The notes beneath the pieces are model-generated. The model saw only the letters and a program-made list of their open reading frames with translations, did not search any database and was not told the DNA's origin. This document shows, in pieces, positions 2,855-26,341 of a stretch of DNA of 27,668 nucleotides (positions are counted from its first letter, which is position 1; each line of letters opens with the position of its first letter). A program made the position numbers and the translations under genes. Source of the DNA: a virus; the IMG/VR virus record IMGVR_UViG_3300005514_000008, positions 1-27,668 of that record; one strand, given 5' to 3'.

Positions 2855-5410
2855 ATGGCAAAGTTTACTAAAAAGATTACCAGTCTTATTCAAGGTCAGG
2901 TACCTGAATTTGTAATATCAGACCATCCTCAATTTGTAGAATTTCTAAAAGCATATTTTACATTTATGGAATGTGCTGAATTAGGTATTACTGAATCTCA
3001 ATCAACAGAAGGTATCTTATTAGAAACAGAAACAGGTCAATCTAACAAATTATTGTTGGACGCAAGTAGACTTGGTTCAGAAGCAACTCAAATAGACGCT
3101 GGCGATAAAGTTTTACAAGAAACTTCCACTTATGGAAAATTTACTTTCGGCGAAATCATAAAAGGTCAAACTTCTAATGCTCAAACTGCTATATTAGCAG
3201 AAGATTTAAAAAATAATAGATTATTCATAAATGCAAATGATAAATTTATAGATGGTGAGACAATTGTTGGTTTAACTTCTGGTGCTTCAGGTATTGCAGG
3301 AAGTTATAGACCAAATCCAGTAAAATCAATCCAAGAATTATTAAACTTTAGGGATCCCGATAAAGTTATACAACATTTCTTATCTCAATTTAGAAACGAA
3401 GTCTTAAATACAATTCCAGAAGACTTACACGGTGATATTAACAAAAGAGAATTAATTAAAAGAGTAAAAACTTTATATCGTACTAAAGGGACTGCAAAAG
3501 GACACGAATTATTTTTTAGATTGTTATTTGGTGAGAATTCAGAAATATTTTATCCAAAAGAACAAATGTTAAGAGTATCAGATGGAGAGTTTACTTCTAA
3601 CCAAGTTTTAAGAACAATTAATAGTGTAGGTAACACAGGAGATTTAGTTGGTAGACAAATTACAGGTTTAACTTCTGGTGCAACTGCAATTATAGAAAAT
3701 TTAAATAGATTCCAAATTGGAGACAAACTTGTATCAGAATTATTATTAAACCAAGATAGTATTGTTGGAACTTTTCAAGTTAATGAAATAGTTAGAGGAA
3801 CAAAAACAGATACCGATGATGTTTACATTAAAGCTGAGGTTACTGGTGTTCCTGGAACATTTACAATAACAAATGATGGTGCAAACTATATTAAAGGAGA
3901 CCAAGTTAAACTTTCAGGTGGTGGACAAGGTTCAATCTGTCAAGTTGGAGAAGTTGGTGGTTCTGGAATAACAAATTTCTATATTAACGCTTCTGGTACA
4001 CAATATCAAATAGGTGACCAATTAGTTTTTGATAATGCAAATACAAATGGTGGTGGAGCTGTTGCTGAAGTTGCTGTTGCTAATGGAGCAATTGGTAATG
4101 AAACAGGTGACGATGGACATATACTTTTTGAAACTGCAACAAGCAGATATGATATTAACCCAGGCAGTAAAATAGTTTTAGAAAATGGAGTAGGTGATAT
4201 TACAGATATAAGATTAATTAATAGTGGTTCTGGTTATACAAAAACACCTTTGGTTACTATTAATAGTTTAAATGGAGTTAACGCTGAAGTACTTTCATAT
4301 GGAGACGAAATTGGAAAATTATTAGGAATTGATATAATAGAAAGTGGTCGTTCACACGAACAAGCGTCAACACCTCCAGCAGTTCAGTTTATAGAATCAA
4401 TTATTGCGTTAAGTACAAATGGAAACTATGTAGTTGGCGAAACAATTACTGGTTCTTCTTCTAGTGCAACTGGTGTTGTAGTAAGTTGGGATGCTAATAG
4501 AAAATTATTAAGATTAAAAGATAGAAATGCTAATTCCTTTTCTGTAGATGAAACTATAACAGGTGGTCTTTCAGGTACAACTGGTTTAATGGGAAAAACA
4601 GACCCAGCAGTTGCAACGATTGATGTTGTTGGATTAGCAACAAGTGAAGGTAGATATGTTTCAGAAGACGGACACTTATCAGAAACAACAATGAAGATAC
4701 AAGATAGTTTATACTATCAGGACTTCTCATATGTTGTTAAAGTAGGTCGTACTATTAATGAATGGCGAGACGCATTTAAAAAGACAATGCACCCTGCTGG
4801 TTTCTACTTTACAGGACAAGTTAATATTGAATTAAAATTAGATAACAGAATTAAAATGCCTGTTGTTGGTAGGGTTACTGGTATTACTTCAAGTCCTTGG
4901 ATTACATTAATGAACACATTGTTTGGTAGTGTATTTGGTAGAAGATTAGGAACAAAAACTGATGGTTCAACTTTAAGAAGTAATCCACTTGAAGGAAAAG
5001 CTGCTGATGTTGCCCAAGGAGGTAAATCTCCTTTCTCAACAACAACTAGGGATGTTACCTTAACACAAACTCCAATATCGTATTCTTTTCAATTTAAACC
5101 ATTTTATTATTTCAGAACAATCAATACAAACTTCGGTTCTGTATATGCTGGACCAAGATTAAGAGAATTTGATAGAAGATTCCAAGGTATGATTAATACA
5201 AGTGCTATGAATTGGGCAAGAGTAAAAGATTTGAGAGTAATAGGTTCTAATACGCCTGCTGATGGAACAGAAGTTCAATTTGGCGATTTAGCAACTATAG
5301 CAAAGACTTATATTACTTTGCCTGTTGAGGTTTTAGTGCCTCAAGGCAAGTTTAGTAATACAAGTAAGAAATTTAGTAGTGGTACTGCTACTTTTGACGC
5401 AAGCTCATAA
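2855..5410 (+). CDS. Large baseplate structural protein in the gp7 position
   Basis: An 851-residue virion protein three bases after the gp6 stop. The N-terminus (residues 10-45), with P-E-F-V-I-S-D-H-P-Q-F-V-E-F-L-K-A-Y-F, is shared by many cyanophage and pelagiphage structural proteins. Residues about 170-240 contain a conserved helical region with R-T-K-G-T-A-K-G-H-E-L-F-F-R. At least four copies of a short beta module of the form G-E-x-I-x-G-x-x-S-G-A-x-G start near residues 132, 265, 526 and 563. The C-terminal 200 residues include D-F-S-Y-V-V-K-V-G and W-R-D-A-F-K-K-T-x-H-P-A-G-F, typical of this family. Between gp6 and gp8, it occupies the place of T4 gp7 (1032 aa), but I cannot demonstrate homology to gp7 itself, so no symbol is given. 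Confidence 0.75.
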   Translation: MAKFTKKITSLIQGQVPEFVISDHPQFVEFLKAYFTFMECAELGITESQSTEGILLETETGQSNKLLLDASRLGSEATQIDAGDKVLQETSTYGKFTFGEIIKGQTSNAQTAILAEDLKNNRLFINANDKFIDGETIVGLTSGASGIAGSYRPNPVKSIQELLNFRDPDKVIQHFLSQFRNEVLNTIPEDLHGDINKRELIKRVKTLYRTKGTAKGHELFFRLLFGENSEIFYPKEQMLRVSDGEFTSNQVLRTINSVGNTGDLVGRQITGLTSGATAIIENLNRFQIGDKLVSELLLNQDSIVGTFQVNEIVRGTKTDTDDVYIKAEVTGVPGTFTITNDGANYIKGDQVKLSGGGQGSICQVGEVGGSGITNFYINASGTQYQIGDQLVFDNANTNGGGAVAEVAVANGAIGNETGDDGHILFETATSRYDINPGSKIVLENGVGDITDIRLINSGSGYTKTPLVTINSLNGVNAEVLSYGDEIGKLLGIDIIESGRSHEQASTPPAVQFIESIIALSTNGNYVVGETITGSSSSATGVVVSWDANRKLLRLKDRNANSFSVDETITGGLSGTTGLMGKTDPAVATIDVVGLATSEGRYVSEDGHLSETTMKIQDSLYYQDFSYVVKVGRTINEWRDAFKKTMHPAGFYFTGQVNIELKLDNRIKMPVVGRVTGITSSPWITLMNTLFGSVFGRRLGTKTDGSTLRSNPLEGKAADVAQGGKSPFSTTTRDVTLTQTPISYSFQFKPFYYFRTINTNFGSVYAGPRLREFDRRFQGMINTSAMNWARVKDLRVIGSNTPADGTEVQFGDLATIAKTYITLPVEVLVPQGKFSNTSKKFSSGTATFDASS

Positions 5411-16238: not shown

Positions 16239-16718
16239 ATGGACGAACAAACTCAATTGTGGATTAAACGATTAAAAGACGAAATCCAAAATCATAACAG
16301 ATACGAAGCAAGACAACTATTTTACATAGATGATAATGGACTTGACCGAGAGGTTAAAGAACATATGACTTATGGAGAATGGTTAAGAGAATTTAATAGA
16401 TTTAAAGTTATTAAGGTGGAAGGTTTAGAAGATGTCTCTTGGTTAAGAGAAGTTTTAGATGAAGTAGTAAAGAATATCACAGGTAAGACTAGACAAGATA
16501 TTCATTTATTTGTGAATCAAAAACCAGGTGTTAGTTTCAAATCTCATAAAGACGACAAAGATGTTTACTTATATGTTGTAAAAGGCAAAAAGAAAGTAAA
16601 TATGAATAATGAGGTTAAACCGATATATGATGATGAAGGAATTATCATTAAACAAGGTGTTGAACACTTTGTTGAAAGTGAAGCTGATACTTGGGGGTTA
16701 AGTATTGGAGTTATATAA
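16239..16718 (+). CDS. Cupin/JmjC-like protein with HxD...H metal site
   Basis: A 159-residue protein. The N-terminal half is a charged helical region (residues 1-85). The C-terminal half looks like a small double-stranded beta-helix: F-V-N-Q-K-P-G-V-S-F, then H103-K-D105, a strand L-Y-V-V-K-G-K-K-K-V (111-120), and G-V-E-H143-F-V. This HxD...H arrangement is the Fe(II) triad of JmjC/cupin-type 2-oxoglutarate oxygenases, though the protein is shorter than most enzymes and no clear 2OG-binding basic residue can be assigned. It could equally be a metal-binding cupin without oxygenase activity. An AGGAG ribosome site at 16228-16232 precedes the ATG. It is the first gene of the accessory cassette and sits two bases before the first radical SAM gene, so the two are probably co-translated. 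Confidence 0.6.
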   Translation: MDEQTQLWIKRLKDEIQNHNRYEARQLFYIDDNGLDREVKEHMTYGEWLREFNRFKVIKVEGLEDVSWLREVLDEVVKNITGKTRQDIHLFVNQKPGVSFKSHKDDKDVYLYVVKGKKKVNMNNEVKPIYDDEGIIIKQGVEHFVESEADTWGLSIGVI

Positions 16719-16720
16719 TA

Positions 16721-17755
16721 ATGAATTGGATGTTTTATGTCAAAACAACCGAAACCTGTAATCTAAATTGTAAACATTGTTTTACTTCAGGTACATCTGG
16801 ACCTAAAGTATATTGGGACACAACAAAGATTATTAAATGGTTCAAAGCATTTCGCAAATTTAACTATCACAAAAACGACACAGCACATTTAGAATTTCAC
16901 GGTGGTGAACCATTTTTGGTTCCTGTATCTGAAATGGATTATGTGTATGACGCAACTAAAGGATTGTGGGACAATCAATCTTATGGTGTAACCACTAATC
17001 TTTGTTTCAAATTAAAACAAGAACACATAGATTTTATGAAAGGTCCTCTTGGTGGCAGATGTGGAACATCTTGGGATCCGAAGATTCGTTTTGAGAATGA
17101 AAAACAATTAAACTTATGGAGACGAAATGTTGCTACTTTAGTTGATGAAGGTATAACGGTTAAACTTTTTATATCAGTAACCAAAGATACAATAGCAATT
17201 GAGCCAATTGAATTATTGAAATGGGTAAAGGATTTAGGTGTTAAAGAAATGGCACTTGAAAGATTGACAGGTAATGGTAATGCAAACTTACATCCAGAAA
17301 TATTCCCACGAAACATAGACCAAGATAAATGGTTTTTAAAAATGCACGAGCAGATGATACAATACAATGCTAGAAAGTGGTTTGAAAATGAATTTTTTGA
17401 AACTATTTACTCAAAATTTACTGCTGGAGACAATACGCAAGGAACTTTCTGTAGAGATTGTGAACAAAAACTATTTACACTAAACGCAACTGGCACAATA
17501 GGTGGTTGCCCTAATGCTGCTCCTGAATTTACTTTTGGAACGCTAGATGACCCTTTGGATGGTCTTATAAATAGTCCTAAGCGATTACACAATATAGCGT
17601 GTGAAGTGGCAAGAAACCCATTGTGTTGGGAATGTCCAGTTTTCAAGTATTGTGGTGGAGATTGTCACCAATTAGGATGGCAAGGTGATATATGTGGCGC
17701 TCCGAAATCACTTATGAAACATTTGGCGCAAAATAGAAGTGAGGCAATATGGTAA
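16721..17755 (+). CDS. Radical SAM/SPASM peptide-maturase-like enzyme (rSAM 1)
   Basis: A 344-residue radical SAM protein. The cluster motif C13-x3-C17-x2-C20 (C-N-L-N-C-K-H-C) binds the SAM [4Fe-4S] cluster, followed by the SAM-contacting G-G-E-P at about residues 60-63. The C-terminus has a full SPASM layout: C244, C247, C263 and C294, then C302-x2-C305-x5-C311-x3-C315 and C325, able to hold two auxiliary clusters. SPASM proteins of this size typically modify ribosomal peptides or proteins (sactipeptide and cyclophane maturases, anSMEs). ATG 16721 was chosen with GGAG at 16707-16710; a TTG at 16691 would only add ten residues inside the previous gene. Its last seven bases overlap the start of the CHxS-tailed protein, making that protein the prime substrate candidate. 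Confidence 0.92.
   Translation: MNWMFYVKTTETCNLNCKHCFTSGTSGPKVYWDTTKIIKWFKAFRKFNYHKNDTAHLEFHGGEPFLVPVSEMDYVYDATKGLWDNQSYGVTTNLCFKLKQEHIDFMKGPLGGRCGTSWDPKIRFENEKQLNLWRRNVATLVDEGITVKLFISVTKDTIAIEPIELLKWVKDLGVKEMALERLTGNGNANLHPEIFPRNIDQDKWFLKMHEQMIQYNARKWFENEFFETIYSKFTAGDNTQGTFCRDCEQKLFTLNATGTIGGCPNAAPEFTFGTLDDPLDGLINSPKRLHNIACEVARNPLCWECPVFKYCGGDCHQLGWQGDICGAPKSLMKHLAQNRSEAIW
17566..17573 (+). promoter_or_regulatory. Possible internal late promoter ahead of CHxS-tailed protein
   Basis: Exact TATAAATA inside the SPASM region of rSAM 1, about 175 bases before the 17749 start. It could give the putative substrate its own late, high-level transcript. Being inside coding sequence (Leu-Ile-Asn-Ser codons) it may be fortuitous. 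Confidence 0.3.
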
Positions 17756-18522
17756 CATTAACAAGTCCGATAACGGCACAGAACATTGTAGATAGATTTA
17801 AAGAATTGGTAACAGATGTAGCTGATACTCAAATAGTATGGGGTACAGATAGTTTACCAGGACACTCAGCGTTTGCTGCTTCAGATTTTGGTGGAGTAGT
17901 AGATGGTATGTCTTTAGTATTAACTAGTGCTAGTGGAACTTTTACAGCAAGCGAAACGGTTACAGGTTCTATTTCAGGTACGGTAGGTACGGTTGTAGAT
18001 TATTCTAGTAATACATTAAAAGTTAGAAATATAGTAGCAGGTTCTGGACAAACAAATTTTTTACAAAATGATGTTTTAACTGGTTCTAATTCTGGTGCAA
18101 GTGGAACTATTTCAACAATGACAGAAGTATCAGCAGTTAGTCTTGGTATATCAGGAACTAATATTGGTACGGTGGGAAGTAATATTAACGCTTTCAACAT
18201 ATACAATACATTAAAAACAGAAATGTTGCTTTACACTAATATTAAAAATACAAATGCTGTGGTTACAATGACAGGTGCTGGTCAACAATATTCAGATACA
18301 CAAATTGCACACTTACCAACAGGACAAAGAACAAATCCCACAATTTCTCAACCAGGTACATTAACGCAAGGACAAGTTGTTAGTTCAACAAGTATAGAGA
18401 GCTTTATGTCATCACTTGCAAGTACATATAATACTGAAAGAGGAACAACTTATACATTGACAAAAACTATTTGCCATTCAAGTTGCCACTCTAGTTGCCA
18501 CGGAAGTAGGAGCAGAAGATAA
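17749..18522 (+). CDS. Virion-like protein with C-terminal Cys-His-x-Ser repeat tail (candidate rSAM substrate)
   Basis: A 257-residue protein whose ATG overlaps the rSAM 1 stop (ATGGTAA). Residues 1-50 resemble a fibre or tail attachment end. Residues 62-125 hold two Gly/Ser/Thr-rich modules (E-T-V-T-G-S-I-S-G-T-V-G-T-V near 69-82 and D-V-L-T-G-S-N-S-G-A-S-G-T near 108-120) of the same kind as in the baseplate and 2034-aa proteins. A helical segment follows (148-165), then an extended Thr/Gln-rich stretch. The only cysteines are in the last 16 residues: C242-H-S-S, C246-H-S-S, C250-H-G-S, then R-S-R-R. The domain order (virion-type body plus a Cys/His/Ser repeat end) resembles a precursor protein with a modifiable C-terminal core. 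Function and modification are inferred; the alternative is an unmodified metal-binding or adhesive tail. Confidence 0.85.
   Translation: MVTLTSPITAQNIVDRFKELVTDVADTQIVWGTDSLPGHSAFAASDFGGVVDGMSLVLTSASGTFTASETVTGSISGTVGTVVDYSSNTLKVRNIVAGSGQTNFLQNDVLTGSNSGASGTISTMTEVSAVSLGISGTNIGTVGSNINAFNIYNTLKTEMLLYTNIKNTNAVVTMTGAGQQYSDTQIAHLPTGQRTNPTISQPGTLTQGQVVSSTSIESFMSSLASTYNTERGTTYTLTKTICHSSCHSSCHGSRSRR
18472..18507 (+). repeat. Three tandem Cys-His-x-Ser coding repeats
   Basis: Three consecutive 12-base units encode C-H-S-S, C-H-S-S and C-H-G-S. The units are not identical at DNA level: the His codon is CAT or CAC and the third codon is TCA, TCT or GGA, while TGC and AGT are constant. This fits conservation of the peptide rather than a very recent DNA duplication. 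The tail R-S-R-R follows immediately before the stop. Confidence 0.9.
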
Positions 18523-19214
18523 TGATTGAAACTATAGTACCAATTGATTTAAAGAATTTAAAAAAATATTTTGAAGATAAATCTGAAAGTTATATGATAG
18601 ATTATGAAAAGAGTAAATTAAAAGGTGCTCAATTCTTAACTTATATAAGCAATTTAGATATACCTTGCGATATATTAAACTATGATGATGAATTACTATT
18701 ATCATATTTTGAAACACAAATGTTAGTAAGTATACCGATGTTAGAAAGAGTTGCTATGCAAGTTCTTTTTGAACATAAAGGTTTAGAGAAAAATGTACTT
18801 CACGGTGCTTTTATTTCTCAAAATTTAGAGATAATAGAAGAATGGGCAAACAAATTAGAAAGTCTGCCTTTATACAATATGTCTATTGTAGGAGAAGGTG
18901 CTTTTAAAGATTTTGTTGAGACTTATCCTAAAGATGAGACTAATGATGTAAAAGGTATTAATTTTGTTAGTCTATTGAAACATACAGATTTTTATTCTTA
19001 TTATAATAAAACTAACGAAAAGAATGTTAAGTATTATACTAAATACTTTACAGAATATATGTTTAAAGGCAAAAGTCTATTTGATTATTGGGGTGTAAAA
19101 GAAAACCCTATGTTTTTAATGACTTGGGCAGTTGCTGAAGGAAAGTTTGATACTAAAAAATATAACGAAGCTAAAAAAGCTGATATAGGAAGATTAAATG
19201 CTACACCTGTTTAA
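18522..19214 (+). CDS. Unknown helical protein of the rSAM cassette
   Basis: A 230-residue protein that I do not recognise. Its ATG shares one base with the stop of the CHxS-tailed gene (TAATG), so translation is coupled. The sequence is rich in Leu, Lys, Glu, Tyr and Phe with predicted alpha-helical character throughout. It has no membrane segment, only one cysteine (C49) and no nucleotide-binding or metal motif that I can see. Aromatic-rich stretches (D-F-Y-S-Y-Y-N-K at about 163-170, K-Y-Y-T-K-Y-F at 177-183) and F-D-Y-W-G near 194 stand out. Because it follows the putative substrate immediately, a role as its chaperone, recognition partner or assembly factor is possible, but this is context only. 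Confidence 0.75.
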   Translation: MIETIVPIDLKNLKKYFEDKSESYMIDYEKSKLKGAQFLTYISNLDIPCDILNYDDELLLSYFETQMLVSIPMLERVAMQVLFEHKGLEKNVLHGAFISQNLEIIEEWANKLESLPLYNMSIVGEGAFKDFVETYPKDETNDVKGINFVSLLKHTDFYSYYNKTNEKNVKYYTKYFTEYMFKGKSLFDYWGVKENPMFLMTWAVAEGKFDTKKYNEAKKADIGRLNATPV

Positions 19215-20313
19215 TAAAGTTTATTTACAATTTGATGACTCAATAGATTGTCATACAAATAGATATGTTATTTCCGAAGAAAAAGGAAATCCAATGCTAT
19301 CAGAATTAGGTAGTGCTTATAGAGGCACACTAATTAACTATGCTAAAAATAGAAATGAAATGCAAGGTAAGTTTGACGACTTAACTGGTTTCTTTGAAGA
19401 TGTATGTACTAAACAAAAATCATTAAATAGTAAAGTTGTTATATATTGCGACACACAAGCATTTTTAGAATTATCTGTTATCTGGTTAAAAACTATCTTA
19501 CCTTTTGGTGATAGTGATAGTATTGTTAAATACCTAGACATACATTTACACAACGAAAGAATTATTACAAATACACAATGTCAACCAACACATATTTTAG
19601 ACTTAACTAAACTGAATGCAGGTTTAGGAGATGTTAAAGGATATGCTGATGTTTTACCTACTTTAGAATTAGATAGAATTAAAGCGCTTAATTTAAATTT
19701 CTCAATTGAATTATTGCTTGGAGAGTATTTTGCTGGTGCTGATACACACGAAGACAATTTACTTTCCTCTTATCATATGTTCTTAAAAAGATTTTATAAA
19801 GAGATATTAACAGATGTTAGAGAAGATACATTATTAAATCTTTTAAATAAATCGCAACAAACTGCTGTAGGTTATTCTGATAGTGATGTTGTAATAAATG
19901 CTGATAACCCTTTTGAAGGAATTACAGAATTGGCTGCCTTTGCTGATACGGATGTCTTTACGGCGAAACCTGTTGCAAATGCTGGATATGTGAATACAAT
20001 AACTATAGATAATTTGTCAAGTGAAAAACAAACTGCATTAAAAACTATAATTAACACAATACAAACACTACAAAATATTCCAAATCCAGATTACTCAATG
20101 GCAAATTTTGATAAAGCGTGTCAGACATCTTTATCTAAAAGTGATTTTGATACAATAATTAATGAAGCGGTGGCGAATAGTCCATCTTTGGCGTATATTC
20201 CAAGATTTGATATTGGTAATGTTAATTACTCTTTTATTCAATATCTACTTTCTTTAAAGAAAGATAACGATTCAAGTACGCTAGGGAAATACAGACTATT
20301 CGCAAACTCGTAG
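19198..20313 (+). CDS. Unknown phage protein in the rSAM cassette
   Basis: A 371-residue protein of unknown function overlapping the previous gene by 17 bases, with AGGAAG (19187-19192) in front of its ATG. The N-terminal segment (L-F-N-K-V-Y-L-Q-F-D-D) and a hydrophobic strand K-V-V-I-Y-C-D near residue 79 followed by a Leu/Ile-rich helix suggest an alpha/beta N-terminal domain (about residues 1-135). This is followed by a mainly helical half with Asn/Asp/Thr-rich linkers (about 230-300). I vaguely recall similar proteins starting M-L-x-L-F-N-K-V-Y-L in marine T4-like phages near radical SAM genes, without an assigned role. No metal or nucleotide motif is evident. It may act with the 230-aa protein, as the pair are tightly coupled downstream of the CHxS protein. 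Confidence 0.75.
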   Translation: MLHLFNKVYLQFDDSIDCHTNRYVISEEKGNPMLSELGSAYRGTLINYAKNRNEMQGKFDDLTGFFEDVCTKQKSLNSKVVIYCDTQAFLELSVIWLKTILPFGDSDSIVKYLDIHLHNERIITNTQCQPTHILDLTKLNAGLGDVKGYADVLPTLELDRIKALNLNFSIELLLGEYFAGADTHEDNLLSSYHMFLKRFYKEILTDVREDTLLNLLNKSQQTAVGYSDSDVVINADNPFEGITELAAFADTDVFTAKPVANAGYVNTITIDNLSSEKQTALKTIINTIQTLQNIPNPDYSMANFDKACQTSLSKSDFDTIINEAVANSPSLAYIPRFDIGNVNYSFIQYLLSLKKDNDSSTLGKYRLFANS

Positions 20314-20321
20314 GAGTTTAA

Positions 20322-21374
20322 ATGCGTGAGTTTTTAATAGACCCCAAAAGAGACCCCGAGCAGGAGTACACAATTCATTTATTTGAATTTTGTAATTTAA
20401 GATGTGCTTTCTGTTGGCAAAACCACGAAGACACGGTTGGAATAGATACCGTAATCAATAAATTAATTCCCGTAGAAAAATTTATCAAACACGAATTGAT
20501 GATGAGTGTTGTATTTAATATTATGGGTGGCGAAGTCTTTGCACCTGCCATCTACAATAAAGAATTAAATCACGCTTATAAAACTTTATCAAAAGGCATA
20601 CAAAAGATATGTGAACGATATGATAAGAAAGTTAGAATTAATTGGGTTACTAATTTGATTATGAGTGATGAAGGTAATGAGTTATTAAGAGATTTATTAA
20701 GTTGGTCTGAACACGAAGGTATTGAAGCAACAATTACTACAAGTTATGATCCTAGAGGAAGATTTAGTAAAACAGATTTAGAACGATTTAAACAACAAGT
20801 AATCTATTGGGGAAAAGAAATAAAATCTTTTTCAATGTTAATAACTAAACCAATGATAAAGTATCATTTAGAACAAGGTGACCCATACTTTAAACACTTA
20901 TATGACCAAGGTTATGAAATTTATTTTGATTACTATACACCAGACCAACACGCAAAATTTTTTATGCCAAGTGATACAGAATTATTAAAGTTCTTTAAGT
21001 ATATAATAGATAACTATCCAAATTGTTCTCCTGTAAGAGAATGGATATTTAAGAAAAGAAATTATGCTAGTTGTAGAACAAGTAAATTGATATTACAAGA
21101 TAATACATTATGTCAATGTGGTAATCTTGTACAGGACCCAAAAGATTTAGTAATGTATAGTTCTCCTATAAAGAAAAAAGACAACTCAATTATTGAAAAT
21201 AAATTTTTAGAAAAATATAATTGTGCTAGTTGTGAATTTTTAGATAGATGTACTTTAGGTTGCTTTATGAACCACGATTATAAATGGAGGGAAGAATTGG
21301 ATGAATGTGTTTACAAACTTACGCACAGATATATTGAAAATGTACGAGTACAAAGAAACTTTATCGCAACCTGA
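20322..21374 (+). CDS. Radical SAM/SPASM protein (rSAM 2)
   Basis: A 350-residue radical SAM protein. C24-x3-C28-x2-C31 (C-N-L-R-C-A-F-C) is the SAM-cluster site, preceded by a strand H-L-F-E-F; M-G-G-E-V near residue 69 corresponds to the GGE motif. A SPASM-type C-terminus shows C251, C264, C266, then C301-x2-C304-x5-C310-x3-C314 and C329. It differs from rSAM 1 in nearly all non-motif positions, so the two are not recent duplicates. The ATG follows an AGGAG ribosome site (20312-20316) after an eight-base gap, and the 3-prime end overlaps the next gene by 74 bases. Likely a peptide or protein modifying enzyme; the substrate is unknown, with the CHxS-tailed protein the nearest candidate. Confidence 0.9.
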   Translation: MREFLIDPKRDPEQEYTIHLFEFCNLRCAFCWQNHEDTVGIDTVINKLIPVEKFIKHELMMSVVFNIMGGEVFAPAIYNKELNHAYKTLSKGIQKICERYDKKVRINWVTNLIMSDEGNELLRDLLSWSEHEGIEATITTSYDPRGRFSKTDLERFKQQVIYWGKEIKSFSMLITKPMIKYHLEQGDPYFKHLYDQGYEIYFDYYTPDQHAKFFMPSDTELLKFFKYIIDNYPNCSPVREWIFKKRNYASCRTSKLILQDNTLCQCGNLVQDPKDLVMYSSPIKKKDNSIIENKFLEKYNCASCEFLDRCTLGCFMNHDYKWREELDECVYKLTHRYIENVRVQRNFIAT

Positions 21375-21936
21375 TATTTCAAAACTTAAAATTAACAATA
21401 CAGACATTGAAATACAATTAGATAAATTTCCAGTTCAGAAACCATTTATACCTAGAATAGATGGTAGACAAGCACATTTATTTTTATGGTTAGGTAAGAA
21501 AGAAGATGATATTGAAACTTACAATCTAGCAGAAAAGAATATAGGTGAAAAGATGTGGGTACATAATAAAACACCTAATACTTTTATAAAAGGTGTAGGT
21601 ATGTTTCATATCTATGATGAGTATGTTATAGTAGGGTCTTTAAAGTATCCTGGTTATATGCGAAGTAAAAGTCCAGTAGAAAGAAGAAGATTGATAAGAA
21701 CAATGTGGTGTGAAACAATTAATATATTTAAAGATAGAAGAATATTATGTCCTACAGGAACTTATTTTGATTATTTACATTTATCTATGAATCAAATGAA
21801 GGCACAAAAAGAACCTTATCATAGAGAGATAATGCAACAATTTGGTTTTGAAAAAGATGTTATATATGACCACTTTTGGATTAGAGATAAAGATACAAAA
21901 ACTGGTTTAAATTGGATTGAATTATATGGAGATTAA
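21301..21936 (+). CDS. Unknown protein between rSAM and oxygenase genes
   Basis: A 211-residue protein that I do not recognise. The start at 21301 has a good GGAGGG ribosome site (21285-21290) but forces a 74-base overlap with rSAM 2; an alternative ATG at 21340 shortens the protein by 13 residues and has no visible ribosome site. The sequence includes F-I-P-R-I-D-G-R-Q-A-H-L-F-L-W-L-G-K near residues 46-63, R-R-R-L-I-R-T-M-W-C near residue 130 and a His/Tyr/Phe-rich end (Y-D-H-F-W-I-R-D). It appears to be a compact alpha/beta protein with no signal peptide. Position suggests an accessory factor of the modification cassette, but nothing in the sequence names a reaction. Confidence 0.7.
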   Translation: MNVFTNLRTDILKMYEYKETLSQPDISKLKINNTDIEIQLDKFPVQKPFIPRIDGRQAHLFLWLGKKEDDIETYNLAEKNIGEKMWVHNKTPNTFIKGVGMFHIYDEYVIVGSLKYPGYMRSKSPVERRRLIRTMWCETINIFKDRRILCPTGTYFDYLHLSMNQMKAQKEPYHREIMQQFGFEKDVIYDHFWIRDKDTKTGLNWIELYGD

Positions 21937-22504
21937 ATTTACAGATACGATAAATGTTTTTGACGATTTCTTAACTGATAAAGTGTTAATTAATAAGTTA
22001 AAAAAAGAAAGTAAAATTGATACTACAATTAAAGGACAAGATACATTTAATTTTACGCCTTGTCAAAAAGAATTTTCTAAAATTGCAAATGCAACATTGA
22101 TAAACTATTGTCTATCAAATAATATAGATTATAATAATTTAGAGTTATCTAATTTTCAAAAAGGTAGATTAAAGAAGTATGATAAGTCTAGTGTGACCAA
22201 TCATTTATATGAACCACACCACGACCAAGTTGAAGGTGCTTTTATTTCTGCAATCTATTATATAGATAGTGATTATACACCTGAAAAATGGGTAGGTGGT
22301 GAATTAAGTATATACAAAAATTTAACCTTTGCTGAATACCCAAATAACACCATAAACATAGAACCTATACCTAATAGACTGATAATGTTTCCTGGGTTTC
22401 TAGTACATAGAGTTAAACCATACTTCGGAGAAAATCCTAGAACATCTTTAGTATTAGGATGGGAAGTAAAAGACCAACCAAAAACTGAACCGATATGGAT
22501 TTAA
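21926..22504 (+). CDS. 2-oxoglutarate/Fe(II)-dependent oxygenase (first)
   Basis: A 192-residue protein with the complete prolyl-hydroxylase-like 2OG/Fe(II) signature: H98-x-D100 (in E-P-H-H-D) followed by strands A-F-I-S-A-I-Y-Y-I, a G-G-E-L-S-I-Y strand at 124-130, then F-P-G-F-L-V-H161-R and R172-T-S, the basic residue that binds 2-oxoglutarate. These enzymes hydroxylate protein side chains or small molecules and are frequent in T4-like marine phages near structural genes. ATG 21926 is preferred over a TTG at 21917; it overlaps the previous stop by 11 bases. Followed by rSAM 3 with a 10-base overlap, indicating one polycistronic unit. The target is unknown. Confidence 0.88.
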   Translation: MEIKFTDTINVFDDFLTDKVLINKLKKESKIDTTIKGQDTFNFTPCQKEFSKIANATLINYCLSNNIDYNNLELSNFQKGRLKKYDKSSVTNHLYEPHHDQVEGAFISAIYYIDSDYTPEKWVGGELSIYKNLTFAEYPNNTINIEPIPNRLIMFPGFLVHRVKPYFGENPRTSLVLGWEVKDQPKTEPIWI

Positions 22505-23583
22505 TAATTAAACCAACTGAATTATGTAATTTCAAATGTACATTTTGTTCAAGTACTCAACTAACAAAAGAGAAAAAGAATTGGTTGAAACACGAACAAA
22601 TATTTGAGTTCTTAACAAGATTTCCTCATACTAAAACTATTATAGTAAATGGTGGGGATCCTTTGATGATGGAACCTGAATACTATTGGAAGATTATTAG
22701 ATGGTTAGATGAAAGAGATTATGCAACATCAATTTCTCTAACAACAAACTTATGGCCGTTCTTAAAGAAACCTAGTTTGTGGGTAGACTTATTTAATGAT
22801 AAAAGAATAGGAGTAACCACTTCTTTTCAATATGGTGGTGGAAGATTAAAAGGAGACTTTACAGAATTTACGGAAGACGACTTTTGGCAATGTTCAGACG
22901 CAATGTTAAAGTATTGTGATTATAGACCAGACTTTATTTCTGTTATAACAAAAGAAAACAAACACAATGCAATTAAAAATGTTGAGTTAGCAAAGTTTAT
23001 GTCAGAAGATAGAGAACCAGAAGGTACTTTACATAATTTATATAGAGAAGAAAAAACTGGTGTTGAATGTAAATTAAATTATGCAATGGCAAGTGGTGAC
23101 CAAAAAGAACCATTTTTATTATCAGATATATATGAGATATATACTAAAATATATAATCAAGGTTTAGCACCTTGGGAATTTAATACGAAACAAATGATGT
23201 TGACTATTAAAGATTGTAGTACTACTTGTCCTTTAAGTAGAAAGTGTGATGAAGGTATAAGATGTTTACAACCCGATGGAGACTATTATAGTTGTGGTGC
23301 TTTTGGTGATGATAGAGATAAAGAAATAGATTTTAAAAGAGAAATGAAAGGTGAGTTTTTTACACCTTTACAAGATGACCTTTCATTAAATAGTATGAAA
23401 AAATCTTGTTATATTTGTCCAATGTTTAATATATGTAATGGTTGTAGAAAAACAATAAAAGATTATCAACACGCTGGAGTAATAGAGAAACATTGTGAGA
23501 AGATGAAACGAATAGGACCTGATATACTAAAAGCAAATGGCAGTACTTTACAAATGACACCATATATAAGTGAGGCACAATGA
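22495..23583 (+). CDS. Radical SAM protein with extended Cys-rich C-terminus (rSAM 3)
   Basis: A 362-residue radical SAM protein. The cluster motif is C11-x3-C15-x2-C18 (C-N-F-K-C-T-F-C), with N-G-G-D-P near residue 52 as the GGE-equivalent. The C-terminus is the richest in cysteine of the four: C241, C245, C251, C257, C267, then C305-x2-C308-x5-C314-x2-C317 and C334. The SPASM block has x2 instead of the usual x3 between its last two cysteines, so its auxiliary-cluster ligation may differ. The start lies within the previous gene's last ten bases; the end overlaps the next oxygenase by four (ATGA). Sandwiched between two 2OG oxygenase genes, it may act in series with them. Confidence 0.9.
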   Translation: MDLIIKPTELCNFKCTFCSSTQLTKEKKNWLKHEQIFEFLTRFPHTKTIIVNGGDPLMMEPEYYWKIIRWLDERDYATSISLTTNLWPFLKKPSLWVDLFNDKRIGVTTSFQYGGGRLKGDFTEFTEDDFWQCSDAMLKYCDYRPDFISVITKENKHNAIKNVELAKFMSEDREPEGTLHNLYREEKTGVECKLNYAMASGDQKEPFLLSDIYEIYTKIYNQGLAPWEFNTKQMMLTIKDCSTTCPLSRKCDEGIRCLQPDGDYYSCGAFGDDRDKEIDFKREMKGEFFTPLQDDLSLNSMKKSCYICPMFNICNGCRKTIKDYQHAGVIEKHCEKMKRIGPDILKANGSTLQMTPYISEAQ

Positions 23584-24101
23584 TAAAAACTAGTAATAAT
23601 ATAGAAAATGTTTTAATCAATGGAGTTTGGCCTACAGCAGACCCATTGCCGTTTAGATTTTTTGAAGGTGTTGAAATACCATTTAAAAGTTTAGAAGGTT
23701 ATAAAGTAGCAGTACATACTCCAGAAGTTGAGAATGCTCTCAAAATGTGCCATACTTATTTGGGTAATAAATATATTAAACAATTGTCTAATAAGTATAA
23801 CTTATATGGTCAACCAGAAATAGTTAACGGAGTAGACAAAGGTTCGTTGAATTGGCATAATGATAATAAAGAAGGAGCAAATATTGCTGCTATTATCTAT
23901 TTCACTTCAGCAAGTAATCCTGATACAGGAGGACAATTAGAAGTAAGAAGTAAGGACAACAAAAGTTTATCTGCATACTTGTACCCAGGCAAGACAGATG
24001 TAGTATTATTAAACCACGCTAAACAATGGGAACATAGAGTTGGAGAATTTAAACCAATAGGTGTTGAACGAATAGCAGGATATTTTGACTATAATATATG
24101 A
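23580..24101 (+). CDS. 2-oxoglutarate/Fe(II)-dependent oxygenase (second)
   Basis: A 173-residue protein with the 2OG/Fe(II) oxygenase core: L-N-W-H93-N-D95, strand I-A-A-I-I-Y-F, G-G-Q-L-E-V-R at 117-123, then H152 in W-E-H-R-V and R164 in E-R-I-A-G-Y-F. It resembles the short prolyl 4-hydroxylase-like proteins of cyanophages. Sequence similarity to the other oxygenase in the cassette is confined to the motifs, so it probably has a different target. The start overlaps the rSAM 3 stop as ATGA, and the stop overlaps a 34-aa ORF in the same manner. Protein-side-chain hydroxylation of a virion protein is plausible but inferred. Confidence 0.88.
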   Translation: MIKTSNNIENVLINGVWPTADPLPFRFFEGVEIPFKSLEGYKVAVHTPEVENALKMCHTYLGNKYIKQLSNKYNLYGQPEIVNGVDKGSLNWHNDNKEGANIAAIIYFTSASNPDTGGQLEVRSKDNKSLSAYLYPGKTDVVLLNHAKQWEHRVGEFKPIGVERIAGYFDYNI

Positions 24102-24202
24102 GTGAATTAGAATTTTTTAAATTTATACAACAAATGGAAAAAGAAGTATACGGTATTACTCCATTCTTTGAGGAATTAGATTATGACGAAACAGAAAATT
24201 AA
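24098..24202 (+). CDS. 34-residue acidic small protein, unknown
   Basis: A short frame (ATG 24098, TAA 24200-24202) that exactly bridges the space between the second oxygenase and rSAM 4. Its ATG overlaps the oxygenase stop as ATGA, and its end overlaps the rSAM 4 start by 20 bases, the same packing used by the annotated genes. The peptide is acidic (ten Glu/Asp against three Lys) with M-S-E-L-E-F-F-K-F-I-Q-Q at its start and F-F-E-E-L-D-Y-D-E-T-E-N at its end. It contains no Cys and no Arg. It could be a leader-like or recognition peptide, a small subunit, or just a spacer frame that keeps ribosomes loaded for rSAM 4. Confidence 0.5.
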   Translation: MSELEFFKFIQQMEKEVYGITPFFEELDYDETEN

Positions 24203-25157
24203 TTTATCAATTAATCCATCTTATCATTGTAATTTTAGATGTTCTTGGTGTTATCTTACACCTAAACAATTAGGTGACACTAAAACTATAAGTGATGAAA
24301 GATTAAATGAATTACTAGCAGAAGTTTCTGCTCATAGAGAAATTAATCATATTGATTTATATGGTGGTGAGATTGGTCTATTAAAGAAAGAACAATTAAA
24401 GAACATCACAGAAGTTATTAGATTATATTATAAAGATAAAATCAATATCAATACAAACCTTTCCGTATTAAGAGAAGAATTTTTTTATCCTGAATATTAT
24501 TTAAGTGTATCTTGGGATTTAGAAACTAGACAAGACTTTATTAAAGTTAGAGAGAATATGGCGAAACTGCCAGTTGACTTTTCTCTATTATGTTTAGCAA
24601 CAAAAGAAGTAATGCACCATTCCGTAGAACACTTTTGGTCTATGATTAATAGAATTAACTTTGAATCTGAAAAAGCAAATCGTGGTAAATCTCATTTAAA
24701 AAGTGTAGAAGTAAAACCTTATAGTGCTAATCAAGCAAATGACCAAGAAGTAACCCACGCACAATACGAAGACTATATTTTAAAATTACTAGAAATGGAA
24801 AGTTCATTGAAAAAAGGTAAATATGAATTTGTAAATAAAAAGAAAGTAATTGCTTCTTTAAATAAAGAATATAACGCATTTAGCGATGACCATTTATATA
24901 TTACACCAAACGGTAAGTTCGCTGTATTAGAATTTGATAAAGATAATAGAGAATACTTTTTAGAATTAAATAGTTTTGAAGAATATGAAAATTGGTGTAA
25001 AAAAGAAAAAGAGAAAACAATATCACCTATATGTAAGAGTTGTGAATATCTAGGAGGTTGTTTAACAGAACATTATCAATATGTCAAAGATTTAGATAAT
25101 GGTTGTAATGGATATAGGTATCTATTGGATACTTATGAAATGAGATATGGCAAATAG
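24183..25157 (+). CDS. Radical SAM protein with twitch-like single auxiliary site (rSAM 4)
   Basis: A 324-residue radical SAM protein with C16-x3-C20-x2-C23 (C-N-F-R-C-S-W-C) and Y-G-G-E-I near residue 61. The C-terminal cysteine set is reduced compared with the other three: C272, then C284-x2-C287-x5-C293, with H297 where a SPASM protein has its fourth cysteine, and C308. This suggests one auxiliary cluster (twitch-like), perhaps with a His ligand. The middle contains a long Lys/Glu-rich helical region (about 165-230). Start ATG 24183 lies inside the 34-aa frame; the end overlaps the next gene by 11 bases. Likely a distinct reaction or substrate from rSAM 1-3. Confidence 0.88.
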   Translation: MTKQKINLSINPSYHCNFRCSWCYLTPKQLGDTKTISDERLNELLAEVSAHREINHIDLYGGEIGLLKKEQLKNITEVIRLYYKDKININTNLSVLREEFFYPEYYLSVSWDLETRQDFIKVRENMAKLPVDFSLLCLATKEVMHHSVEHFWSMINRINFESEKANRGKSHLKSVEVKPYSANQANDQEVTHAQYEDYILKLLEMESSLKKGKYEFVNKKKVIASLNKEYNAFSDDHLYITPNGKFAVLEFDKDNREYFLELNSFEEYENWCKKEKEKTISPICKSCEYLGGCLTEHYQYVKDLDNGCNGYRYLLDTYEMRYGK

Positions 25158-25941
25158 AGCATTTTGTATAGGTAATGGAAGAAGTAGAAAAGGTTTTAAT
25201 TTAAACTCATTAAAATCTCGTGGAGTAATATTAGGTTGTAATAATCTATATAAAGATTTTGCGCCAGATATATTAGTTTCAGTTGACCATCCACTTATGC
25301 ACAACATTTATAATTCTGGTTATTGTTATACTTCTAAATGTTATTTTAGAGATTGGATAAAAATACCACAAGAGAATTATGAAAATATGTTGGCAGGTTT
25401 CTTTCCTGATTATAGACATATAAGAGCAATAAGAAAGTCAGGTCATTTAGTAGAAAACAATAGAGCAGGTTCAAATGAATTTGTATTGCACGGATATAAT
25501 GACAAACAAACTGGAAAGAATATGGTGACGGTAAGTTGGTGTACAAAAGATTATGTTTATAATATGACGGATATAATAAAAGATCCAGAGCAAACAATGT
25601 GGTCTGCTGGTCCTTCAAGTGGTTATATTGCTTGTAAGACTATTAATAATATGAAAGAAGTATATTTAATTGGACACGATTTATATAGTTCTAATAAATC
25701 ATTTAATAATGTCTATGCAGGACAACCTTACTATGTATCAGATACACACCCTAGTAATTATTATGTACAGAATTGGATAATGCAATGGAAGAAGTTGTTT
25801 AGATGGTATCATCATATTAAGTTTTATAAAGTCAATAGAAGAAATTTTTTAAATATAAATGTTCCTGAATGGAATGATTGTAAGAATTTGGAGTATATAA
25901 GCTATGAAAGAATGGAAAATCAAACAAGAAGTCTACCATAG
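25147..25941 (+). CDS. Rossmann-like MptE/DUF115-type phage protein
   Basis: A 264-residue protein. The N-terminus has a nucleotide-binding-like turn, C-I-G-N-G-R-S-R-K-G (residues 7-16), followed by G-V-I-L-G-C-N-N-L-Y and P-D-I-L-V-S-V-D-H-P. A second half carries S-A-G-P-S-S-G-Y-I-A and E-V-Y-L-I-G-H-D-L-Y. This pattern is shared with phage proteins I recall as related to the MptE-like/DUF115 family, which includes 6-hydroxymethylpterin pyrophosphokinase-like and flagellin-associated sugar-transfer proteins. A role in adding a sugar or other activated group is therefore possible but not shown. It overlaps rSAM 4 by 11 bases and the following gene by 38 bases, so it belongs to the same polycistron. 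Confidence 0.6.
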   Translation: MANRAFCIGNGRSRKGFNLNSLKSRGVILGCNNLYKDFAPDILVSVDHPLMHNIYNSGYCYTSKCYFRDWIKIPQENYENMLAGFFPDYRHIRAIRKSGHLVENNRAGSNEFVLHGYNDKQTGKNMVTVSWCTKDYVYNMTDIIKDPEQTMWSAGPSSGYIACKTINNMKEVYLIGHDLYSSNKSFNNVYAGQPYYVSDTHPSNYYVQNWIMQWKKLFRWYHHIKFYKVNRRNFLNINVPEWNDCKNLEYISYERMENQTRSLP

Positions 25942-26341
25942 ACTAAATCCTACTCACTCGGATATGTTAATGGATAAAGAAATATCCTTAATATGGGATG
26001 AACAGGATATAGTACGATATGCCATTAAACATTGGCACGAAAGAGTAGATAAGTTTATATATCCAGCAAAGAGTTATTGTGTAGCAATATGTTATGCAAA
26101 GTGGATAGAGAGAGATTATGGAGATAATTTTTGGGACTTATTAAATGACCCAAAATTATTGTATAGTAATGACCCTTACTTTGAAGTATACAAAGATAAG
26201 AAACACATATACAATCCTATTATATCAACTTTCCCTGAAGATGAAACTCAAGGAATGATACCAGATATAAGGGATTGGTATGAAAAAGAAATAAAGTACG
26301 ATACTGGAATTAGTATAAATAGTAAATATAAGGAGAAATAA
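25904..26341 (+). CDS. Unknown 145-aa phage protein
   Basis: A 145-residue protein, not recognised. It begins inside the previous gene, with GGAG at 25890-25893 about 10 bases before its ATG. The sequence is rich in Trp, Tyr, Asp and Lys: H-W-H-E-R-V-D-K-F-I-Y-P near residue 43, C-V-A-I-C-Y-A-K-W-I-E-R near residue 59, and an acidic P-E-D-E-T-Q-G-M-I-P-D-I-R-D-W-Y segment around residue 111. Mostly helical, with no membrane segment. It is the last gene of the accessory cassette; a late promoter for the next virion-region gene is embedded in its final codons. Confidence 0.7.
   Translation: MKEWKIKQEVYHRLNPTHSDMLMDKEISLIWDEQDIVRYAIKHWHERVDKFIYPAKSYCVAICYAKWIERDYGDNFWDLLNDPKLLYSNDPYFEVYKDKKHIYNPIISTFPEDETQGMIPDIRDWYEKEIKYDTGISINSKYKEK
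26314..26321 (+). promoter_or_regulatory. T4-like late promoter TATAAATA
   Basis: Exact TATAAATA within the final codons of the 145-aa gene, 22 bases before the ATG at 26344. The AAGGAG ribosome site (26330-26335) follows at the distance expected for a short late leader, so expression switches here from the accessory cassette back to virion-region genes. Confidence 0.65.

Follow-up and report, generated by a model that had tools for sequence, protein, structure and literature searches.

A radical SAM enzyme paired with proteins ending in a repeated Cys-His-x-Ser tail in a phage gene cassette points to modification of a probable virion protein

We analysed a 27,668-nucleotide stretch of viral DNA (IMG/VR record IMGVR_UViG_3300005514_000008, positions 1 to 27,668; hereafter the window), in which the gene of a radical SAM/SPASM enzyme, rSAM1, leads directly into that of a 257-aa protein ending in a repeated C-H-x-S tail (the CHxS protein). 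The reading that we favour, and consider somewhat probable, is that rSAM1 modifies the C-terminal tail of a folded, probably virion-borne CHxS protein within a protein-modification cassette. The DNA of the window comes from the tail/baseplate region of a T4-like marine myovirus related to the Pelagibacter phages Mosig and HTVC008M, Mosig being the nearest phage (65% in the baseplate wedge). The cassette genes come after PAAR, gp25-like, gp6-like and fibre-type genes, with the PAAR-like protein at 21-308. The central features are listed here.

16239-16718, + strand: cupin-fold protein, 159 aa, first gene of the module (Pfam Cupin_2, E 2.2e-5, score slightly under the cut-off)
16721-17755, + strand: rSAM1, radical SAM/SPASM enzyme, presumed to modify the tail (phrog_1802, E 3.7e-65)
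17749-17755, + strand: overlap ATGGTAA, 7 bases, read from the sequence
17749-18522, + strand: CHxS protein, 257 aa, folded body plus C-terminal repeat tail, presumed substrate
17902-18132, + strand: inserted beta domain, about residues 52-128 of the CHxS protein, missing from the ~190-aa homologues
18472-18519, + strand: tail CHSSCHSSCHGSRSRR, three C-H-x-S units plus R-x-R-R at the exact C-terminus, with 12-base direct repeats

The rSAM1 gene encodes 344 aa (ATG 16721 to TAA 17755); the span 16721-17761 given in a preliminary description of this DNA corresponds to rSAM1 plus the initial codons of the CHxS gene. Indeed, the full SPASM spacing claimed there is present (C302-x2-C305-x5-C311-x3-C315, followed by C325), and the NCBIfam SPASM model TIGR04085 scored 28.3 bits, passing its cut-off of 27. 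The N-terminal CX3CX2C [4Fe-4S] motif is formed by C13, C17 and C20. In an alignment of 76 sequences that takes in Bdellovibrionota, these three residues and the other core cysteines (247, 263, 302, 305, 311, 315 and 325) were conserved in all 76. Although rSAM1 is a member of phrog_1802, that family is labelled merely "radical SAM domain-containing protein", with neither substrate nor function.

The 7-base overlap is real, bases 17749-17755 being common to the rSAM1 gene and the CHxS gene (ATG 17749 to TAA 18522). The preliminary description took it to fix the translation ratio of the two genes, an idea that did not hold: the junction in relatives ranges from -29 to +46 nt (modes -17, -7 and +29), with only the closest relatives showing the 7-base form, and the CHxS gene has a GAGG for its own start. 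Because the junction varies in this way and other neighbouring genes of the window overlap as well (by 1, 17, 10 and 4 bases), the overlap is an ordinary one. The proposed fixed gene order fared no better; in a tandem-pair arrangement described below, the substrates come before the enzymes or lie apart from them.

To define the tail independently of the body, we ran a DNA pattern for CHxxCHxxCHxxRxRR-stop, containing no body sequence, on IMG/VR, and it retrieved at least 119 stretches. At least 183 distinct proteins end exactly in the motif, 157 of them assessed first and the remainder taken from later loci, compared with 0 of 92,740 shuffled proteins; the motif is not a product of chance. Among the 157 distinct tail proteins of the first loci, no motif was found at an internal position. 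The pattern had left the x3 positions free, and serine nevertheless occupies the three of them in 91, 82 and 90% of cases, otherwise mostly asparagine, with both AGY and TCN serine codons in use. Glycine, at another free position, precedes RR in 88% of tail proteins. In the CHxS protein itself, the tail ICHSSCHSSCHGSRSRR shows H-x-S in every repeat.

The motif ends a main body family of ~190-260 aa and a second family of ~127-aa proteins that occur in tandem pairs, and profile comparison with hhalign detected no relation between the two (probability 10%). Since the tail caps at least two unrelated bodies, it is the tail, not the body, that follows the enzyme. At four loci (L054:7016-8384, and also L055, L056 and L059), a body-like protein after rSAM1 lacks the CHxS tail, which sits on a second, 140-aa protein instead, and the tail has therefore moved between adjacent genes. 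Another subtype may be represented by a 231-kb phage record (L142:8105-8878), in which the tail has four units, WCHSNCHSNCHSNCHTNRSRR, and the rSAM1 is only distantly related (31%).

The preliminary description overlooked the folded body and the wider cassette. An AlphaFold2 model of the CHxS protein, built with 71 relatives, had a mean pLDDT of 92, with a predicted folded domain up to about residue 241; the body scored above 90, and pLDDT fell to 65 and 55 in the last blocks, which comprise the tail. Foldseek matched the inserted domain to cyanophage structural, fibre and baseplate proteins, and the best-scoring PDB chain is a phage baseplate protein (Z 7.6, rmsd 2.1, 71 aligned). The insert also resembles window 4373-4630, part of an 851-aa baseplate-region protein (26% identity, E 2e-5, an E value from a one-genome search). 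For the core, no convincing solved relative emerged (no Foldseek match below 1e-3; VIA Z ≤7.6). In tblastn searches of 50,697 phage records, neither the CHxS protein nor a pair-type tail protein returned a match, because the body diverges fast; queries with rSAM1, rSAM3 and p230 did retrieve seven of the same records.

We then asked how strictly tail and enzyme occur together. The pairing is well supported by co-occurrence, but rSAM1 is not directly upstream of every tail gene, a check that the preliminary description had suggested. Among the matches listed, it lies directly upstream of 94 of 157 distinct tail proteins and within 1.5 kb of 8 more. Where a tail-bearing record lacked an adjacent rSAM1, a homologue was encoded elsewhere in 18 of 24 cases; the remaining six records are fragments; four break off within ~6 kb downstream of the tail gene, and the others are 24 and 33 kb long. 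Conversely, 54 rSAM1 loci were gathered with rSAM1 peptides and not with the tail motif; 43 have an exact tail within 2 kb, while the other 11 show the tandem-pair arrangement, in which rSAM1 lies kilobases from the tails and sometimes on the opposite strand. Whole-record scans of tandem-pair contigs located tails kilobases off in several of the longer ones. Only 7 of the 50,697 phage records carry rSAM1, the same seven carry rSAM3 and p230, and in all seven of these phage-isolate records the tail gene directly follows rSAM1 (two are Atu_ph07 and represent one phage; the FLC6 and FLC8 tails come from tblastn matches).

Agreement between the gene trees was partial. The rSAM1 distances are correlated with those of the CHxS body (Mantel r 0.76, reached in 0 of 500 permutations), and so are the p230 distances (0.88), but 11-14 of the ~30 supported splits per tree conflict and 13 are common to the rSAM1 and body trees; parts of the cassette have therefore been exchanged. 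One 151-kb phage record (G014, the record of L186) encodes two rSAM1 homologues (63% and 46%), and thus two versions of the system can coexist.

The pair belongs to a larger cassette, whose usual order is cupin, rSAM1, CHxS, p230, p371, rSAM2, (2OG), rSAM3, (2OG), rSAM4, p145. Downstream of the CHxS gene, the window encodes the following members.

18522-19214, + strand: p230 (phrog_20767), conserved partner 3' of the substrate gene, 74 of 80 loci
19198-20313, + strand: p371, cassette member, 57 of 80 loci
20322-21374, + strand: rSAM2, second radical SAM enzyme (phrog_1802, E 5.7e-41), 78 of 80 loci
21301-21936, + strand: p211, 22 of 80 loci
21917-22504, + strand: 2OG-Fe(II) oxygenase a (Pfam PF13640, E 1.5e-8)
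22495-23583, + strand: rSAM3, third radical SAM enzyme, in the same seven phage records as rSAM1
23580-24101, + strand: 2OG-Fe(II) oxygenase b (Pfam PF13640, E 1.3e-6)
24183-25157, + strand: rSAM4, fourth radical SAM enzyme (Pfam PF04055, E 2.7e-7)
25904-26341, + strand: p145 (phrog_20737, E 3e-38), small conserved cassette protein

The counts refer to 80 distinct loci with at least 5.5 kb of downstream DNA, in which the tail (73), cupin (70) and rSAM3 (62) were also frequent; the p371 count was reached despite limited flank. Of 90 distinct rSAM1-tail pairs, 79 have a cupin homologue upstream of rSAM1, and at least 700 nt of upstream DNA is available for 83; the cupin is annotated in phages S13 and FLC6. 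In the tandem-pair type (L153 and L177), a long structural gene lies before the tail pair, which can in turn be followed by p230, cupin, rSAM1, rSAM3, rSAM4, p145 and rSAM2. The p230 model (pLDDT 88.5) showed no clear known fold (no Foldseek match below 1e-3; VIA Z ≤3.5), and NCBIfam searches with p230, p371, p211 and p145 gave nothing useful. A further gene, p264 (window 25147-25941), had no family match and occurs in only two of the fetched loci, perhaps as a recent insertion in the cassette.

Evidence on the location of the CHxS protein comes from Agrobacterium phage Atu_ph07, where the CHxS protein is gp170, with a C-terminal peptide ending ...DFCHSSCHASCHNSR, and rSAM1 is gp171. In the published description of that phage, the virion proteins detected by mass spectrometry (MS) are concentrated in CDS 31-76, 170-215 and 284-329 (PMC6102473). 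As gp215 is the major head protein and is numbered in the same way as gp170, the cluster CDS 170-215 begins at the CHxS gene. From the boundary of this MS-supported cluster, gp170 itself was presumably detected, and the CHxS protein is probably a virion protein of the tail tip, fibre or baseplate. In the window, TATAAATA, the T4 late-promoter core, occurs on the + strand only, at 311, 5419, 7097, 17566, 26314 and 26964; four of the six sites lie shortly before gene starts (327, 5449, 7129 and 26995) and another falls within the rSAM1 gene, ahead of the CHxS gene. Their number is at chance level, and we discarded them as a signal.

Jumbo phages and Bdellovibrionota chromosomes carry the cassette as well. 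The 19 matches in the genome collection were mostly Bdellovibrionota or phage contigs in MAGs; those in Frankia, Pseudoalteromonas and Bordetella genomes had no ORF with the motif and were rejected as chance. Among the Bdellovibrionota loci, L286 adjoins ribosomal protein S20, L288 adjoins an ABC-F-type ATPase, and L304 lies on a 4.15-Mb contig. A phage sheath gene was absent from nine of the ten genomes tested; the tenth, a Bacteroidetes MAG, has one on the same contig, which is therefore phage. The Bdellovibrionota homologues of the window genes are ~53% (rSAM3), ~43% (rSAM4) and ~40% (rSAM1) identical, and these loci also encode homologues of rSAM2, p230, 2OG-b and p145. Across 290 Bdellovibrionota genomes, rSAM1 occurred in 16 and the exact tail in 8, all within those 16.

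We also considered whether the tail might be an assembly or sorting tag, with cassette and tail co-travelling only as linked late tail genes. The constant RxRR at the very end, the position of the genes in the tail region and the recombination seen within the cassette are in keeping with a tag. On the other hand, cassettes with tails reside on bacterial chromosomes that have no phage sheath gene, and linkage alone does not explain co-occurrence with genes kilobases apart. We judge a tag very unlikely.

Of the other eight Bdellovibrionota genomes with rSAM1, seven carry variant tails in the same locus, all ending in R-x-R-R: YCHGNFPPPCHGSRGRR (three genomes), YCHTNVPTPPPCHASRGRR, YWCHSSHSSHSSHSSRGRR, YCHSNHCSHSNHGSRGRR and CNSNFICHSNCYTPPPKSRSRR. 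At the eighth locus, L302, the 10 kb that were read showed no tail. Most variant tails keep H-x-S/N, with cysteine number and spacing free, and the variant WCHSSHSSHSSHSSRGRR retains both H-x-S and RGRR. At L305 the tail is a pure HSS repeat of four H-x-S units with a single cysteine, and at L306 the H-x-S units are kept with two cysteines; yet the L299 tail, CNSNFICHSNCYTPPPKSRSRR, has three cysteines and only one histidine.

These variants bear on a reading in which the tail, left unmodified, forms a tip that binds metal (Zn, Fe or Cu) through its Cys and His residues, with the radical SAM enzymes acting on another component of the phage tail or on a host molecule. Alternating Cys and His suit metal binding, the window has its PAAR-like protein, and adjacency alone does not prove a substrate. 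However, rSAM1 accompanies the tail on unrelated bodies and in unrelated hosts, the x3 residue is Ser or Asn and not a ligand, and variants such as CHGNFPPPCHGSRGRR lose the Cys/His arrangement while RGRR stays. A purely metal-binding role thus appears unlikely.

Bdellovibrionota cassettes are flanked by a conserved trio (L303:426-2558, L300:8000-10143, L301:8235-10370, L304:9118-11299 and L287:13573-15705), consisting of a prepilin-like protein, a ~195-aa protein ending GRHWVK and a ~122-aa protein that starts MNRR in most loci; it is possibly a pilus-type adhesive fibre. The L303 prepilin-like protein, the sole one tested, has a Peptidase_S74 domain (E 1.4e-17), and such a neighbour points to adhesive fibres. 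MAT fibres with an S74 chaperone are a known adhesive fibre class in Bdellovibrio (PMC10769870); that paper makes no mention of radical SAM, and the likeness is a gene-neighbourhood link only.

If the tail is modified by rSAM1, the sequence offers two kinds of chemistry. Modification through the cysteines would give thioethers to neighbouring residues, as in sactipeptides and ranthipeptides, whose maturases share the SPASM architecture and a Cys-rich target with the rSAM1 system. The strict 4-residue period of Cys in nearly all members is compatible with this, SPASM enzymes of this type make thioethers, and rSAM1 weakly matches the PapB and SCIFF maturase models. However, thioethers leave Ser/Asn at x3 unexplained, and the four H-x-S units of L305 have a single cysteine and the L306 tail two. 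In addition, no leader was recognised, unlike in sactipeptides and ranthipeptides, and the otherwise nearly invariant Cys is reduced to one in L305. Thioether formation is possible, though doubtful. Ser or Asn two residues after His in a repeated unit fits a His-x-Ser crosslink, the product that we prefer.

Among known systems, the His-Xaa-Ser system (HxsA, HxsB, HxsC and HxsD; TIGR03976-TIGR03979), proposed by Haft and Basu in 2011 as cited in PMC9062424, likewise combines C-terminal H-x-S repeats with more than one radical SAM enzyme. The matches of rSAM1 to HxsB (E 4.4e-9, 35.6 bits) and of rSAM3 to HxsC (E 6.9e-8, 31.7 bits) stay far below the cut-offs of 370 and 267.9 bits. The target has no HxsA profile match, though its H-x-S repeats are present, and the small cassette proteins scanned had no NCBIfam match to HxsD. 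The present system differs from Hxs in having Cys before His in most units, an RxRR terminus, a phage-borne location and a folded body of ~100-350 aa.

The tail unit presumably also fits the triceptide motif class, aromatic-x-x3 with Ser or Asn at x3. Among triceptide-type cyclophane-forming enzymes, rSAM1 weakly matches the YhhB, FxsB and DynA maturase models, far under every characterised one (best, DynA, 38 bits against 450), and the substrate here is probably a structural protein instead of a short precursor. Nor does the target resemble RiPP precursors, which are short and have a leader cleaved from the core; it is a 257-aa predicted folded protein, and neither a leader peptide nor a RiPP recognition domain was identified, nor a protease gene in the cassette. 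The superfamilies are known, and we regard their arrangement as a variation on radical-SAM peptide maturation. In the papers on FLC6 and S13, the cupin, radical SAM and 2OG genes are listed one by one, and a literature search covering few subscription papers found no description of the system.

We propose that the CHxS protein would present a flexible C-terminus, made up of three C-H-x-S units followed by R-x-R-R, which rSAM1 would bind and modify unit by unit through SAM-derived radical chemistry. That rSAM1 acts on the tail we infer, and as the cassette contains four radical SAM enzymes, the assignment rests on adjacency. The modification would most likely be a crosslink within each unit, preferably a three-residue His-to-Ser ring, as His-Xaa-Ser proteins suggest, or alternatively a Cys thioether. 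The cupin, p230, rSAM2-4 and the two oxygenases may help in this step or have the same or adjacent tail proteins as their targets. The resulting tip might be rigid, stable or metal-binding; that it serves in adsorption or tail function is guessed from the neighbouring genes.

More broadly, and only tentatively, tailed phages and Bdellovibrionota may share a mobile cassette of about ten genes that places radical crosslinks on the C-terminal tip of phage-tail or pilus-type adhesins. If true, this would be a protein-scale, uncleaved counterpart of RiPP maturation, yielding a covalently hardened or metal-binding tip for attachment to bacterial cells. Most of what is known of radical-SAM crosslinking concerns small secreted peptides; in the present case, the chemistry seems to be linked to a probable virion protein, within a multi-enzyme cassette whose conservation extends over marine phages, jumbo phages and the chromosomes of predatory-type bacteria. 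Phage radical SAM, 2OG-oxygenase and cupin genes, so far listed singly without a role, thereby gain a candidate function, and since cultured phages with the system exist, chemical modification of tail proteins by phages becomes testable.
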